DNA of 64,000 nucleotides, taken from the NCBI GenBank assembly GCA_029260575.1, contig JAJDDB010000002.1:62001-126000 (forward strand), given 5' to 3'. The DNA comes from Phycisphaerales bacterium. Its GTDB lineage: Bacteria; Planctomycetota; Phycisphaerae; Phycisphaerales; SM1A02. A program made the position numbers and the translations under genes. How positions within the stretch are numbered: the first letter of the stretch is position 1; every line of letters begins with the position of its first letter. Under the pieces are notes generated by a model that worked only from the letters and a program-made list of their open reading frames with translations, did no database searches and was not told where the DNA came from. Positions 343 to 3,920 of the stretch are shown here, one piece after another.

Positions 343-378
343 TAGCGCAGAGATGCGCGACGACGCACAGTTAGCAAG

Positions 379-462
379 TACCGGAGGTGGGACTCGAACC
401 CACACGGGTTTTACCCCACTGGATTTTGAATCCAGCGCGTCTGCCAATTCCGCCACTCCGGC
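379..462 (-). tRNA. tRNA-Leu (anticodon CAA)
   Basis: The minus strand folds into a full class II cloverleaf. The acceptor is GCCGGAG against CTCCGGT (a G-U closing pair), the D arm contains GGCAGACGC, the anticodon stem CTGGA/TCCAG encloses loop TTCAAAA (anticodon CAA), a long variable arm follows, and the T arm has GGTTCGAGTCC. It reads UUG leucine codons. The CCA tail is not encoded (the next bases read CTT), so the nucleotidyltransferase must add it. It is followed by its own terminator. Confidence 0.95.
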
Positions 463-509
463 GTGGGATGAGCATCTTTGCAGGCTCAATCACACCAGTC
501 AACGCGCAC

Positions 510-539
510 AAAAACCCCGCCGACGATTGCGGCGGGTTT
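510..539 (-). terminator. intrinsic terminator of tRNA-Ala(GGC)
   Basis: On the minus strand AAACCCGCCG pairs with CGGCGGGGTTT around a six-base loop and runs into TTTTT. It starts five bases past the 3' end of tRNA-Ala and separates it from the downstream tRNA-Leu, so the two tRNAs appear to be separate transcription units. Confidence 0.75.
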
Positions 540-543
540 GAAG

Positions 544-616
<73 letters not shown>

Positions 617-731
617 AGGGTTTCGTTTGCCGAGCTGTCCCGGACAAGCCCCACAGGATACCGCCCCCGATCAGCGGATCAAGCGCCGACCGCAGGTATG
701 ACGCCGCGCTGATTCTGTATGATCGCTCGCT

Positions 732-890
732 ATGTGCGTTCTCGTACTCATCATCATTGCGGTCTTCATACCACCATTGGCGGTGGGCTTGAAATTTGGA
801 TTCGGACAGCCCTTCTGGAGCAGCTTGAATCCGACGTCGTTGATATTCCTGCCGGGTCTGATTCCCGCCAACGTTGTGAATGTCCGCTGA
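732..890 (+). CDS. Pmp3/YqaE-family small membrane protein
   Basis: This 52-codon ORF encodes a hydrophobic peptide with two membrane segments: about residues 3-20 (VLIIIAVFIPPLAVGLKFG) and about 34-48 (ending LPGLIPANVV). The order IPPLAV-LK-G-G-FW-L-LPGLIP matches the Pmp3/UPF0057 (YqaE) proteolipids, stress-linked plasma-membrane peptides of 50-60 residues. No good Shine-Dalgarno precedes ATG 732. The DUF4112 gene follows within a few bases, so the two probably share a transcript. Family call from recalled signature only; function in bacteria is poorly defined. Confidence 0.7.
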   Translation: MCVLVLIIIAVFIPPLAVGLKFGFGQPFWSSLNPTSLIFLPGLIPANVVNVR

Positions 891-895
891 CGCTC

Positions 896-1255
896 GTGGC
901 AGACTTGACTGATCAGAACCGGCTTCGCCGAATAGCGCGGCTGGCAAAGCTCCTTGATGCCCAGTTTCGGTTTCCGGGCACCAAAATCAGGTTCGGACTT
1001 GACGCGCTCATCGGCCTGATACCTGTTGTTGGCGATGTAGCCATGGTATTTCCGGCACTATTCGTTGTATATCTGGCTTGGCAGGCGGGCGTGCCACGAA
1101 GGATCGCGCTCAGAATGCTTGGCAACGTTCTCATCGATTCGGTTCTCGGAGCAATTCCGGTTGTCGGCGATCTGTTCGATGTCGCGTTCAAGGCAAACAT
1201 GCGCAATGCACGATTGTTGCAGGCGACGTCGCGCAAAGGCCATGACGAGGTCTGA
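896..1255 (+). CDS. DUF4112 domain membrane protein
   Basis: From GTG 896 the product is 119 residues and matches the DUF4112 layout: RLAKLLDAQFRFPGTKIRFG, then the repeated motif LIGLIPVVGD and LGAIPVVGDLFDVAFKAN around two membrane helices (about residues 40-65 and 72-95). The open frame extends upstream to ATG 719, but that part overlaps the Pmp3-like gene and has no family similarity, so I prefer the later start just five bases after the Pmp3-like stop. The family is of unknown function and inner-membrane located. It converges with the MBOAT gene 22 bases away. Confidence 0.8.
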   Translation: MADLTDQNRLRRIARLAKLLDAQFRFPGTKIRFGLDALIGLIPVVGDVAMVFPALFVVYLAWQAGVPRRIALRMLGNVLIDSVLGAIPVVGDLFDVAFKANMRNARLLQATSRKGHDEV

Positions 1256-1277: not shown

Positions 1278-2450
1278 TTATGACGTAAACGAGAAGAACC
1301 GAACGAATATGCGCAGCACATCGATTGCGTCGCCGTAGCCGTGCATGCAAGTGATCATTGAACCCAGAGAGACCGTGGTAAATGTCAGCGCAATTCCGAT
1401 TATGTCACGAACTCGGTTCGGCTTCATGAACCATTTGCGCTTACGGCGAAACTTCGACCATACAAGGAATATGGTGACTGCGGTTGCGTGGTAAATGCCC
1501 CACATCAACCAGACGGACGATGCGTTGTGCCACAGGCCCATCACAATGAACGTTGCATAGATTGCGAGATAGGGATTTCGCGTCAAGCCGATCATGGGCA
1601 TGTACACGTAGGACTGGCACCATCCAGCCAGCGTCATATGCCAGCGCTTCCAGAACACGCCGATGTTCGGCGCGAGAATCGGCCAGTTGAAATTCTCCAT
1701 GATGCGCAGGCCGAAGAGACGCGCTGAACCGATCGCGATGTCGCTGTATGCTGAGAAGTCCATGTAGGAGACAAGGTAGAACAGTACCGAAAAGGCCCAA
1801 AGCTTGGAACTCGGCAACTCATGGAGGCGGTCCAGTACAACTCCACCGTCTCGCAGTGTCCCCATTCGTGGAATGAGAATCATCTCTGCAATGACGAACT
1901 TCTTGATTAATCCGTAGATGATTCGCGTCAAACCTTCACCCGCGCTTGAAGCGCTCCATCGCGATTCCTGGTTTGCGATGAAGTGGTCGTATCGTTCAAT
2001 CGGACCGGCAGTGAAGATCGGGACAAGGAACATGTAGGTGAGGAATTGTTGAAGCGATCGATCAGTGATGTTCTGCCGGGCGACCTCTACCGCATAATGC
2101 ACCAGTTTGAATGAGAAGTAGCTGATGCCGAGCATTGCCGGAATTCGACTTGCGAACGATTCGCCTCCGAATTGCGAGGCCAAATGCGGCACGTATTTGA
2201 AGAACGCAAGAAATCCCAGGATGCCCAGGATTAGCAGCGTGACAAAACGGCGCCTCGCAATAGCTCGAGGCGCAAGCCAAAAGAATAATCCACTCCAGAC
2301 TGTTACTGCTACTGTGCTTTGTGGGGAAATTGAAAACAGATAGGCCCAGCTTGCCGCTGCAAGGAACCCAAATCTAAGGCGTTTCGGTAGCGTCCAAAAC
2401 ATGAGCACCGCAAGTGCAAGTGCGGACCAGTAAATCGGTGAATCAAGCAT
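1278..2450 (-). CDS. MBOAT-family O-acyltransferase (AlgI/DltB-like)
   Basis: A polytopic protein of 390 residues, the inner-membrane acyl-transfer channel of an envelope-polymer acylation system. Recognisable MBOAT elements are MDFSAYSDIAIGSARLFG (about 230-247), FWKRWHMTLAGW (about 266-277) and GLWHNASSVWLMWGIYH (about 305-321), where His308 is the expected catalytic histidine and His321 a second conserved histidine. Length is slightly short of AlgI (about 460-520) and near DltB (about 400). It is the last gene of an operon after the SGNH protein and the FRYQGF microprotein, starting 18 nt after the microprotein stop. The acyl donor and polymer are unknown. Confidence 0.9.
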   Translation of the reverse strand: MLDSPIYWSALALAVLMFWTLPKRLRFGFLAAASWAYLFSISPQSTVAVTVWSGLFFWLAPRAIARRRFVTLLILGILGFLAFFKYVPHLASQFGGESFASRIPAMLGISYFSFKLVHYAVEVARQNITDRSLQQFLTYMFLVPIFTAGPIERYDHFIANQESRWSASSAGEGLTRIIYGLIKKFVIAEMILIPRMGTLRDGGVVLDRLHELPSSKLWAFSVLFYLVSYMDFSAYSDIAIGSARLFGLRIMENFNWPILAPNIGVFWKRWHMTLAGWCQSYVYMPMIGLTRNPYLAIYATFIVMGLWHNASSVWLMWGIYHATAVTIFLVWSKFRRKRKWFMKPNRVRDIIGIALTFTTVSLGSMITCMHGYGDAIDVLRIFVRFFSFTS

Positions 2451-2468
2451 TGCCGGTGCCGTTACGCA

Positions 2469-2603
2469 TCAAAAACCCTGATATCGGAACACAGTCGCTC
2501 CGGTACTGAGCGAGACGAGATTTGCAATAGCGACGAAGAGCAGGATGCCCAGAACCAACGCTTGTATCGTACTGCCGAGTATGCGGGCAATGGTGCGTTT
2601 CAC
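2469..2603 (-). CDS. 44-aa DltX-like membrane microprotein with C-terminal FRYQGF
   Basis: GTG 2603 overlaps the TGA of the SGNH gene in a GTGA, and the frame runs 44 codons to TGA 2469. The peptide has a basic N-terminus (KRTIARIL), one membrane helix at about residues 13-32 and the exact C-terminus FRYQGF. DltX, the small protein of Gram-positive dlt operons, has one helix and a C-terminal FxYxxF motif whose tyrosine is proposed to carry the acyl group between MBOAT and SGNH enzymes; Tyr41 here would be the equivalent. Position between the SGNH and MBOAT genes fits that role. Homology by motif, size and context only; too short for routine ORF calling. Confidence 0.75.
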   Translation of the reverse strand: MKRTIARILGSTIQALVLGILLFVAIANLVSLSTGATVFRYQGF

Positions 2604-3706
2604 GGTGATATATCGCTCCGTCCAGTGCGTGCGTACGCTGATATTCGGCGTGAAAGTTCCTTGCTGTATGCACTTCGCACTTCAGGCGCGCGAATGTGAC
2701 ACCAGTCGTCGAAATCTGAATCCTGCAATCCAACTGTCGCATCGAGACGCCAATACGAAATGTCATGCGTTTCAGCAAAACTCTGAACGTCATCTTCGAA
2801 TTTTGCAATCATCTGCTGAGGCAAAAGGTGCTTGATTCGTGGATTGACGGGGGGATTGACTATTGCAATATGTTGAACCCCTCGCAAGCGCAGCAACTTC
2901 ACGATTCGCTCGAGTATCAGGAAATTCGAATCGCTGTTGGCATCGTAGTCGCCGAAGTCGGCCAGAATTCTGGCCATATGCTCGTCCCACTCATCATCTG
3001 CAAGGCGCGGTCTTGCATCGTTGTACCGATTGATCTTCACAGGCCCGAGAATGAGATTCTTGACAGCTGTTCTGCGCGCGAGGAAGAAGTTGAAGTTGTC
3101 GATGAAATAGACACCCGTACTTTTCGGAGCGTCGAATCCGGCCCGTATCAGCTCATCCGTCCACGCGTCGGTTATGAAGCCGAAGCGGGGGCGCTTTACG
3201 TATGGGCCGATCTTGATCGACGCAAAGTCAGCAATCCGTTTTGCGCCGAGGTCTAATACGAAAATATCGTTTGGGGTCGCTACAAAGTCACAGATGCTCG
3301 CATACTCCCAGAGGTTTTCGCCGGGAGCCGAGAGGTTGACGACCTGTACCTGCTCGCCGAGCTCTCGGGAGATCTCAGTTTCCAATTCAGAATCGTCGCC
3401 CAGAGCATGCAAGAATGATGAAGCGCCGAGAAGAACAACCACGCGTTTGTCCGGGTCTTCTTCCTGCAACTGAAATGCGCGAGAAGTCACATATGCGTAA
3501 TGGTCACCCGGCCGTGTCATGAGCATGGCTGGGTCTGTTCGTCGCATGAAATCCGGTGTGAGAATCAGAATGCACAACAGAATTCCCGTAAAGGCCACAA
3601 GAAGCGCACCGATGGCAGCGCCGAACGACGGCCTGACCATTGACCGTACGAATTCAGAGACGATTCTTGGAAATTCTGTCGGTGCTGTTGACTGCGGATC
3701 GTGCAT
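2600..3706 (-). CDS. SGNH-hydrolase-like acyltransferase partner (DltD/AlgJ/AlgX type)
   Basis: A 368-residue protein with one N-terminal membrane helix (about 30-52) and a periplasmic SGNH-like domain. VLLGASSFLH (91-100) supplies a candidate nucleophilic Ser96 or Ser97, NLSAPGEN is block-like with Asn and Gly, and Asp334-Trp-Cys-His337 gives the DxxH pair. Such proteins transfer acyl groups delivered by an MBOAT partner to a surface polymer. First gene of the operon with the 44-aa microprotein (4-nt overlap) and the MBOAT gene. The ATG at 3706 sits inside TATAATG, so if that is a -10 box the real start may be Met23 (3640), just before the helix. Substrate unknown. Confidence 0.75.
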   Translation of the reverse strand: MHDPQSTAPTEFPRIVSEFVRSMVRPSFGAAIGALLVAFTGILLCILILTPDFMRRTDPAMLMTRPGDHYAYVTSRAFQLQEEDPDKRVVVLLGASSFLHALGDDSELETEISRELGEQVQVVNLSAPGENLWEYASICDFVATPNDIFVLDLGAKRIADFASIKIGPYVKRPRFGFITDAWTDELIRAGFDAPKSTGVYFIDNFNFFLARRTAVKNLILGPVKINRYNDARPRLADDEWDEHMARILADFGDYDANSDSNFLILERIVKLLRLRGVQHIAIVNPPVNPRIKHLLPQQMIAKFEDDVQSFAETHDISYWRLDATVGLQDSDFDDWCHIRAPEVRSAYSKELSRRISAYARTGRSDISP

Positions 3707-3848: not shown

Positions 3849-3920
3849 AGCGGGTGAAGGGATTCGAACCCTCGACATTCACGTTGGCAACGTGACGCTC
3901 TACCACTGAGCTACACCCGC
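3849..3920 (-). tRNA. tRNA-Gly (anticodon GCC)
   Basis: Minus-strand cloverleaf with acceptor GCGGGTG/CACCCGC, D arm GCTCAGTGGTAGAGC, anticodon stem TCACG/CGTGA around TTGCCAA (anticodon GCC) and T arm GGTTCGAATCC. Discriminator T, no encoded CCA. It lies 142 bp upstream of, and in the same direction as, the SGNH/MBOAT operon; no clear terminator is visible between them. Bases 3921-4051 hold no gene. Confidence 0.95.

Follow-up and report, generated by a model that had tools for sequence, protein, structure and literature searches.

A 44-aa protein with a single predicted membrane helix, encoded between an SGNH enzyme and an MBOAT protein in a Phycisphaerales bacterium, is supported as a conserved, DltX-like subunit of this MBOAT/SGNH pair. 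Across related loci, such a microprotein and a shuttle motif fused to the MBOAT itself are mutually exclusive, with a separation that is nearly complete. The three genes were read from positions 3706-1278 of a 64,000-nucleotide stretch of DNA (the window), where they follow one another on the minus strand in the order SGNH enzyme, microprotein, MBOAT protein. By analogy with known acyl relays, we consider it probable that the triad is a single membrane machine that moves a cytoplasmic acyl group to a surface or periplasmic polymer via Tyr41 of the microprotein, using a carrier supplied in trans.

The window triad and its microprotein

The initial annotation of the window placed three tightly coupled open reading frames on the minus strand, including a GTGA overlap, and all were found where it had located them (Table 1), with 18 nt separating the microprotein stop codon from the MBOAT ATG. 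The residue numbers that it gave for the SGNH enzyme (Ser96, Asp334 and His337) and for the MBOAT (His308) are likewise correct, and each of these residues is invariant in alignments with sequences from other genomes (17 SGNH and 20 MBOAT sequences).

Table 1. Positions of the triad genes and their key residues in the window
Feature	Window positions	Strand	Details
SGNH acyltransferase, DltD-like fold	2600..3706	-	368 aa; N-terminal membrane helix 28-48
SGNH catalytic codons	Ser96 3421-3419; Asp334 2707-2705; His337 2698-2696	-	
DltX-like microprotein ("X")	2469..2603	-	44 aa, GTG start, one helix
Microprotein C-terminus FRYQGF	2489-2472	-	Tyr41 codon 2483-2481
GTGA, 4-nt overlap of SGNH stop and microprotein start	2600..2603	-	direct sequence reading
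MBOAT acyltransferase, DltB-like	1278..2450	-	390 aa; catalytic His308 codon 1529-1527

Directly downstream of the triad lies a gene for a DUF4112 protein (Pfam PF13430, 4.5e-36; window 719-1255, plus strand), and genes for tRNA-Leu, tRNA-Ala and tRNA-Gly (window 378-616 and 3849-3920, minus strand) are located on both sides of the triad region. The GC content of this region is 0.51-0.53, compared with 0.57-0.58 in its flanks, and the region is possibly an inserted segment. Scans for promoters, terminators and repeats returned nothing notable.

An AlphaFold2 model of the SGNH protein (pLDDT 88) finds its best PDB match in DltD (Foldseek E 1.2e-5, TM ~0.4; VIA Z 14.3 and rmsd 4.6 over 272 residues), and thus combines a full-length DltD-like fold with the SGNH triad. 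The overall fit is loose: numerous smaller SGNH hydrolases reach Z 11-13 against the same model, indicating that the resemblance to DltD is weak outside the common core, and the protein gave no match at E 1 to the DltD models PF04914 and TIGR04092. The MBOAT protein matches Pfam PF03062 (7.2e-24; 85.1 bits, above the 27-bit gathering cut-off) and, with 157.8 bits (4.4e-46), the NCBIfam DltB model TIGR04091, whose curated cut-off of 375 it does not reach. Its sequence profile recovers the DltB sequences in the PDB (1.6e-55), and its model (pLDDT 87) is matched best by DltB (E 1.4e-14, TM 0.77). The window MBOAT therefore has a DltB-like fold and the catalytic histidine but no fused shuttle motif; its C-terminus reads FFSFTS, so that it is not of the fused PatA/AlgI type.

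The microprotein begins with the basic sequence MKRTIAR, continues through a hydrophobic stretch at about residues 14-31, and ends with STGATVFRYQGF. According to the positive-inside rule, its tyrosine is predicted to reside outside the cytoplasm, the same orientation as reported for DltX. The claim that the peptide ends in FRYQGF, fitting the FxYxxF terminus of DltX, is borne out: in an alignment with 18 relatives, which share 36-69% identity, F39, Y41 and F44 are invariant, as are Q14 and G19. It had been recognized that a lack of conservation of the peptide or its motif at orthologous SGNH/MBOAT loci would tell against the proposal, and both are clearly conserved. The microprotein thus displays the features of DltX, namely a C-terminal FxYxxF with an invariant tyrosine in the alignment and one transmembrane helix as read from the sequence. 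Within the 4.11-Mb genome, the pattern FxYQGF followed by a stop codon occurs at exactly two sites, which adjoin the two MBOAT genes of the genome, one site each, whereas the reversed pattern, used as a control, occurs at none. Codon differences between the window microprotein and its paralogue number 11, 5 and 24 at positions 1, 2 and 3 (dN 0.27, dS 2.5), and a third-position bias is also evident in the other microprotein pairs compared. These comparisons indicate that the microprotein is a real gene under purifying selection.

Beyond the motif, the microprotein has no significant likeness to DltX from B. thuringiensis (hhalign probability 1%), and the Pfam DltX model (PF12459) matched neither the window microprotein nor three relatives from its clade. 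Searches of Pfam, NCBIfam and PDB sequences with the microprotein, and of a plasmid collection for its relatives, likewise yielded no match.

Separate and fused shuttle motifs among MBOAT loci

The sample comprised 79 loci with related MBOATs from many phyla and four loci from genome searches. Counts were made on 82 MBOAT loci, half of which (41) encode unfused proteins, mostly ~390-440 aa in length, and half (41) fused proteins of ~455-640 aa that end in FxYxxF or near variants. A microprotein was scored automatically wherever a nearby small open reading frame carried a hydrophobic stretch and had the motif at its end. By this rule a microprotein is located near 37 of the 41 unfused MBOATs and near none of the 41 fused ones (Fisher p 7e-19, a value that overstates independence because the sequences are related, and that is not a true probability). 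Other FxYxxF-type endings belong almost exclusively to fused MBOATs or to tiny fragments. The short FxYxxF-ending frames that the initial annotation proposed to seek beside MBOAT genes are therefore a regular feature of unfused loci in several phyla, and this conservation lends support to its view of the peptide as a DltX-like subunit of the MBOAT/SGNH pair.

Four unfused MBOATs lack a microprotein according to the automatic rule. For L037 the microprotein adjoins a tandem copy, for L065 it is contained within a longer open frame, and for L043 it is found at a second locus in the same genome, leaving L055 as the remaining exception. One of the 37 positive loci, L072, is an unfused member of the fused clade that resembles a recently broken gene, and it adds no support to the argument for mutual exclusion. 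A broken or frameshifted fused MBOAT was also considered as the source of the microprotein and was rejected, as the microprotein gene is mostly upstream of the MBOAT gene in the window clade and is conserved over several phyla. In two quick unrooted trees, the fused MBOATs group in a single supported clade and their unfused counterparts fall into several, with the window MBOAT outside the fused clade in both. The confinement of fused proteins to one clade would fit a fusion that happened once.

Several microprotein-type loci differ in composition from the carrier-linked operons described below. In Syntrophomonadaceae and Peptococcaceae (L048, L050, L051, L053, L054 and L081), the order is SGNH-MBOAT-microprotein, the microprotein ends in FIYxxF, and no ligase or carrier adjoins. 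Three loci from Peregrinibacteria/Patescibacteria (L057, L058 and L068) have the order SGNH-microprotein-MBOAT, with a terminal FIYNNF and no ligase or carrier, and are flanked by genes for proteins with EGYPDGTxxPxxxLNRAELLK repeats resembling S-layer homology domains. Among Bacteroidota (L073, L080, L085 and L064), unfused MBOATs are accompanied ~1.2 kb downstream by a small open reading frame with the variant ending [YC]LYxxF, which in L073 and L085 is placed after an SGNH-like frame. Finally, a genome from the same family as the window genome (G012) contains a cluster of FkbH, a carrier, a distant unfused MBOAT, a microprotein ending in FIYQGF and an SGNH-like protein (L023:9253-13982), possibly a glyceryl-carrier version of the relay. 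Through the loci of Bacillota, Peregrinibacteria and Bacteroidota and those of FkbH type, the range of the microprotein reaches past Dlt-like operons, and some of the carrier-less MBOATs in the first three groups may use acyl-CoA.

Candidate acyl donors for the window triad

The only other MBOAT of the window genome (C3, L021) is 55% identical to the window MBOAT and is its sister in the trees (support 97 and 99). Its operon encodes, in order, an SGNH protein, a microprotein, the MBOAT, a carrier, a PLP-dependent decarboxylase, a sulfotransferase and an AMP-forming ligase. A phosphopantetheine motif is present in the carrier, whose matches to DltC-type models are weak and below the cut-offs. 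The ligase, whose best NCBIfam match is TIGR03098 (369 bits, below cut-off), scores 145-159 bits against DltA models, again below cut-off, and retains the A4-motif aspartate typical of amino-acid activation. For the PLP enzyme, the best NCBIfam match is TIGR03099, also below the curated cut-off. No ligase or carrier is present within ~8-9 kb on either side of the window triad (L024). The statement in the initial annotation that dltA and dltC are missing thus holds for the window locus but not for the genome, where the sister locus provides a DltA-like ligase and a carrier. The corollary that the relay appears to use another donor does not follow, given that ligase and carrier are found at the sister locus and in nearly all relatives.

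Cassettes of the type SGNH-microprotein-MBOAT-ligase-carrier occur at ~20 related loci in Planctomycetota, Hydrogenedentota, Alphaproteobacteria and Gammaproteobacteria, and most loci of the window MBOAT clade include both ligase and carrier. Among the organisms with the cassette is the cultivable Pseudohalioglobus lutimaris. Every carrier of this clade has a DS motif. The A4 motif of the ligase varies, being FD in most and APWG, FSLA or others elsewhere, which suggests that the cargo is probably lineage-specific while the relay remains constant. A PLP decarboxylase has been added in some cassettes and a sulfotransferase in some; these two enzymes, separate neighbors in L021, are fused in one 730-aa protein in L040 (11149-13341), suggesting that they share one carrier-bound or small substrate. 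In Candidatus Parabeggiatoa, a protein with a sulfatase-modifying-factor-type (FGE) domain is encoded between MBOAT and ligase (L030:4694-6061). Close relatives of the window MBOAT are present in only four of 392 genomes of the phylum, and in four of 151 of the order, a sporadic distribution that suggests horizontal spread.

Borrowing of a loaded carrier by the window triad is best supported by the three genomes with two MBOATs of the window clade (the window genome, that of L037, and that containing L043 and L165), in each of which the pair of loci holds one ligase/carrier set. The L037 tandem comprises two SGNH-MBOAT pairs with a single copy each of microprotein, ligase and carrier. In the L043 genome, the first locus encodes just an SGNH protein and an MBOAT, and the second has ligase, MBOAT, microprotein and carrier, with no SGNH protein detected there. 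Together with the sister-locus enzymes and the carriers of nearly all relatives, this arrangement makes a carrier-bound donor acting in trans more probable than a donor of another kind, and the sister locus is the most likely source.

In the mechanism that we propose, an adenylating ligase would load an acyl group, probably an amino acid or a derivative, onto the phosphopantetheine of the small carrier, both proteins being supplied to the window triad from the sister locus. By analogy with DltB and PatA, the MBOAT would then employ His308 to carry the acyl group across the membrane and attach it to Tyr41 of the microprotein. The loaded C-terminus of the microprotein would swing to the SGNH protein, where Ser96 would accept the group and transfer it to a polymer hydroxyl. 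In this Gram-negative-type genome, it is plausible that the acceptor is a polymer other than that of Dlt.

The genome offers other potential donors, namely acetyl-CoA, AcpP and an FkbH-carrier pair. The principal alternative retains the relay as proposed but has the MBOAT accept acetyl-CoA or another acyl-CoA directly, rendering the sister-locus carrier irrelevant. The isolation of the window triad from ligase and carrier genes, the comparable carrier-less triads of Bacillota, Peregrinibacteria and Bacteroidota, and the use of acetyl-CoA by PatA (PMC12148441) are all consistent with such a route. However, all but a few members of the clade are linked to a carrier, the sister locus of the window genome among them, and carriers adjoin 20 of the 41 unfused MBOATs but none of the 41 fused ones, the type to which the acyl-CoA-using PatA belongs. 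We regard direct use of acyl-CoA as considerably less likely than the carrier in trans.

Four other carrier proteins are encoded in the window genome, one of them paired with FkbH near glycosyltransferase-like genes and with no MBOAT adjoining (L127:4218-6508, G000:C35). A glyceryl-type group on this FkbH-linked carrier might be the donor, as the cluster in the related genome (L023) unites FkbH and a carrier with MBOAT, microprotein and SGNH. Because the MBOAT of L023 is only remotely related to the window clade, whose carriers are of another type with a DSF core motif, we judge a glyceryl donor to be improbable. Slightly more doubtful still is that the window triad represents a duplicate of the sister locus that has lost its function and is in decay: the accessory genes of that locus are absent from it, but none of its three frames is interrupted, every catalytic residue is retained, and dN is far below dS between the two microproteins. 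That the 44-aa frame arose by chance, as its short length and GTG start might suggest, can be dismissed on the strength of the genome-wide pattern count, the split between unfused and fused loci, the invariant residues and the codon bias, each of which is strongly contrary.

Comparison with known acyl-relay systems

The relay microprotein appears to be far commoner than previously thought, and neither Pfam nor NCBIfam has a model for its family. We tentatively suggest, as a broader reading that may or may not prove correct, that the tyrosine microprotein is a general and mostly unannotated MBOAT/SGNH subunit in at least six phyla, serving a wide range of cargos (amino acids, their decarboxylated or sulfated derivatives, and glyceryl groups), with several triads sharing one carrier in trans and with the fused PatA/AlgI proteins as a single later lineage. 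The loci described here offer a simple genomic test, in which an MBOAT that lacks a C-terminal FxYxxF is expected to have an adjoining small gene that supplies the motif. The carrier-linked cassettes hint that Planctomycetota, Hydrogenedentota and marine Proteobacteria modify their surfaces in ways as yet unstudied, and new acyl groups on envelope polymers might come to light through swaps of loading enzymes around the constant relay.

A tyrosine relay has been demonstrated both for DltX and for PatA, where it is fused to the MBOAT, and MBOAT/SGNH pathways other than Dlt were said in 2025 to have no DltX-like microprotein (PMC12148441). The present loci, several of which lack ligase and carrier and one of which includes FkbH, contradict the restriction of the microprotein to Dlt as a general rule. 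Peptidoglycan O-acetylation by PatA and PatB resembles the window triad in pairing an MBOAT with an SGNH protein and a tyrosine shuttle motif. PatA, however, uses acetyl-CoA and carries the motif at its own C-terminus on extra helices, whereas the window motif resides on a separate protein. The exosortase-A-associated ligase and decarboxylase models (TIGR03098 and TIGR03099) best describe the sister-locus enzymes, but the enzymes here fall below the cut-offs and are sited with MBOAT, microprotein and SGNH genes. A literature search for the exosortase ligase together with the decarboxylase found no paper.

The closest functional analogy is to Gram-positive Dlt, which likewise has a separate one-helix FxYxxF microprotein, an unfused MBOAT and an SGNH partner with a DltD-like fold, and whose DltA and DltC correspond to the adenylating ligase and carrier of the sister locus. 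The two differ in gene order (X-A-B-C-D, as opposed to SGNH-X-MBOAT, followed in some loci by ligase and carrier), in that dltA and dltC are within the Dlt operon but absent beside the window triad, and in that teichoic acid is not expected here and some loci add a PLP decarboxylase and a sulfotransferase. No component of the present system passes the cut-off of a curated Dlt model. With these models missed (the general Pfam MBOAT model being passed) and the fold and motif features present, the triad is best described as Dlt-like rather than as a member of the curated Dlt families, outside which it probably works as Dlt does.

This architecture has a known Gram-negative precedent, for the dlt-type loci of Enterobacterales (the Dickeya and Pectobacterium system) have the same order, SGNH-X-MBOAT-ligase-carrier, with X ending in FEYQxF. 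In 2017, dlt genes were mentioned for a handful of Gram-negative enterobacteria, together with a DltX that agrees in topology but shows no sequence similarity (PMC5541007), and mutation of dltB makes Dickeya sensitive to polymyxin (PMC3544676). In the enterobacterial system, however, the ligase is far closer to DltA (384 bits), and the SGNH protein passes the Pfam DltD cut-off. A search of 395 Enterobacterales genomes at E 1e-42, for which a positive control was absent, returned no window-type MBOAT, and in a quick tree with long branches the enterobacterial MBOATs lie outside the window clade. On phylogenetic grounds, then, the window-type MBOATs appear to constitute a clade distinct from DltB of Gram-positive and of enterobacterial origin, a lineage with its own, as yet unnamed, microprotein family.
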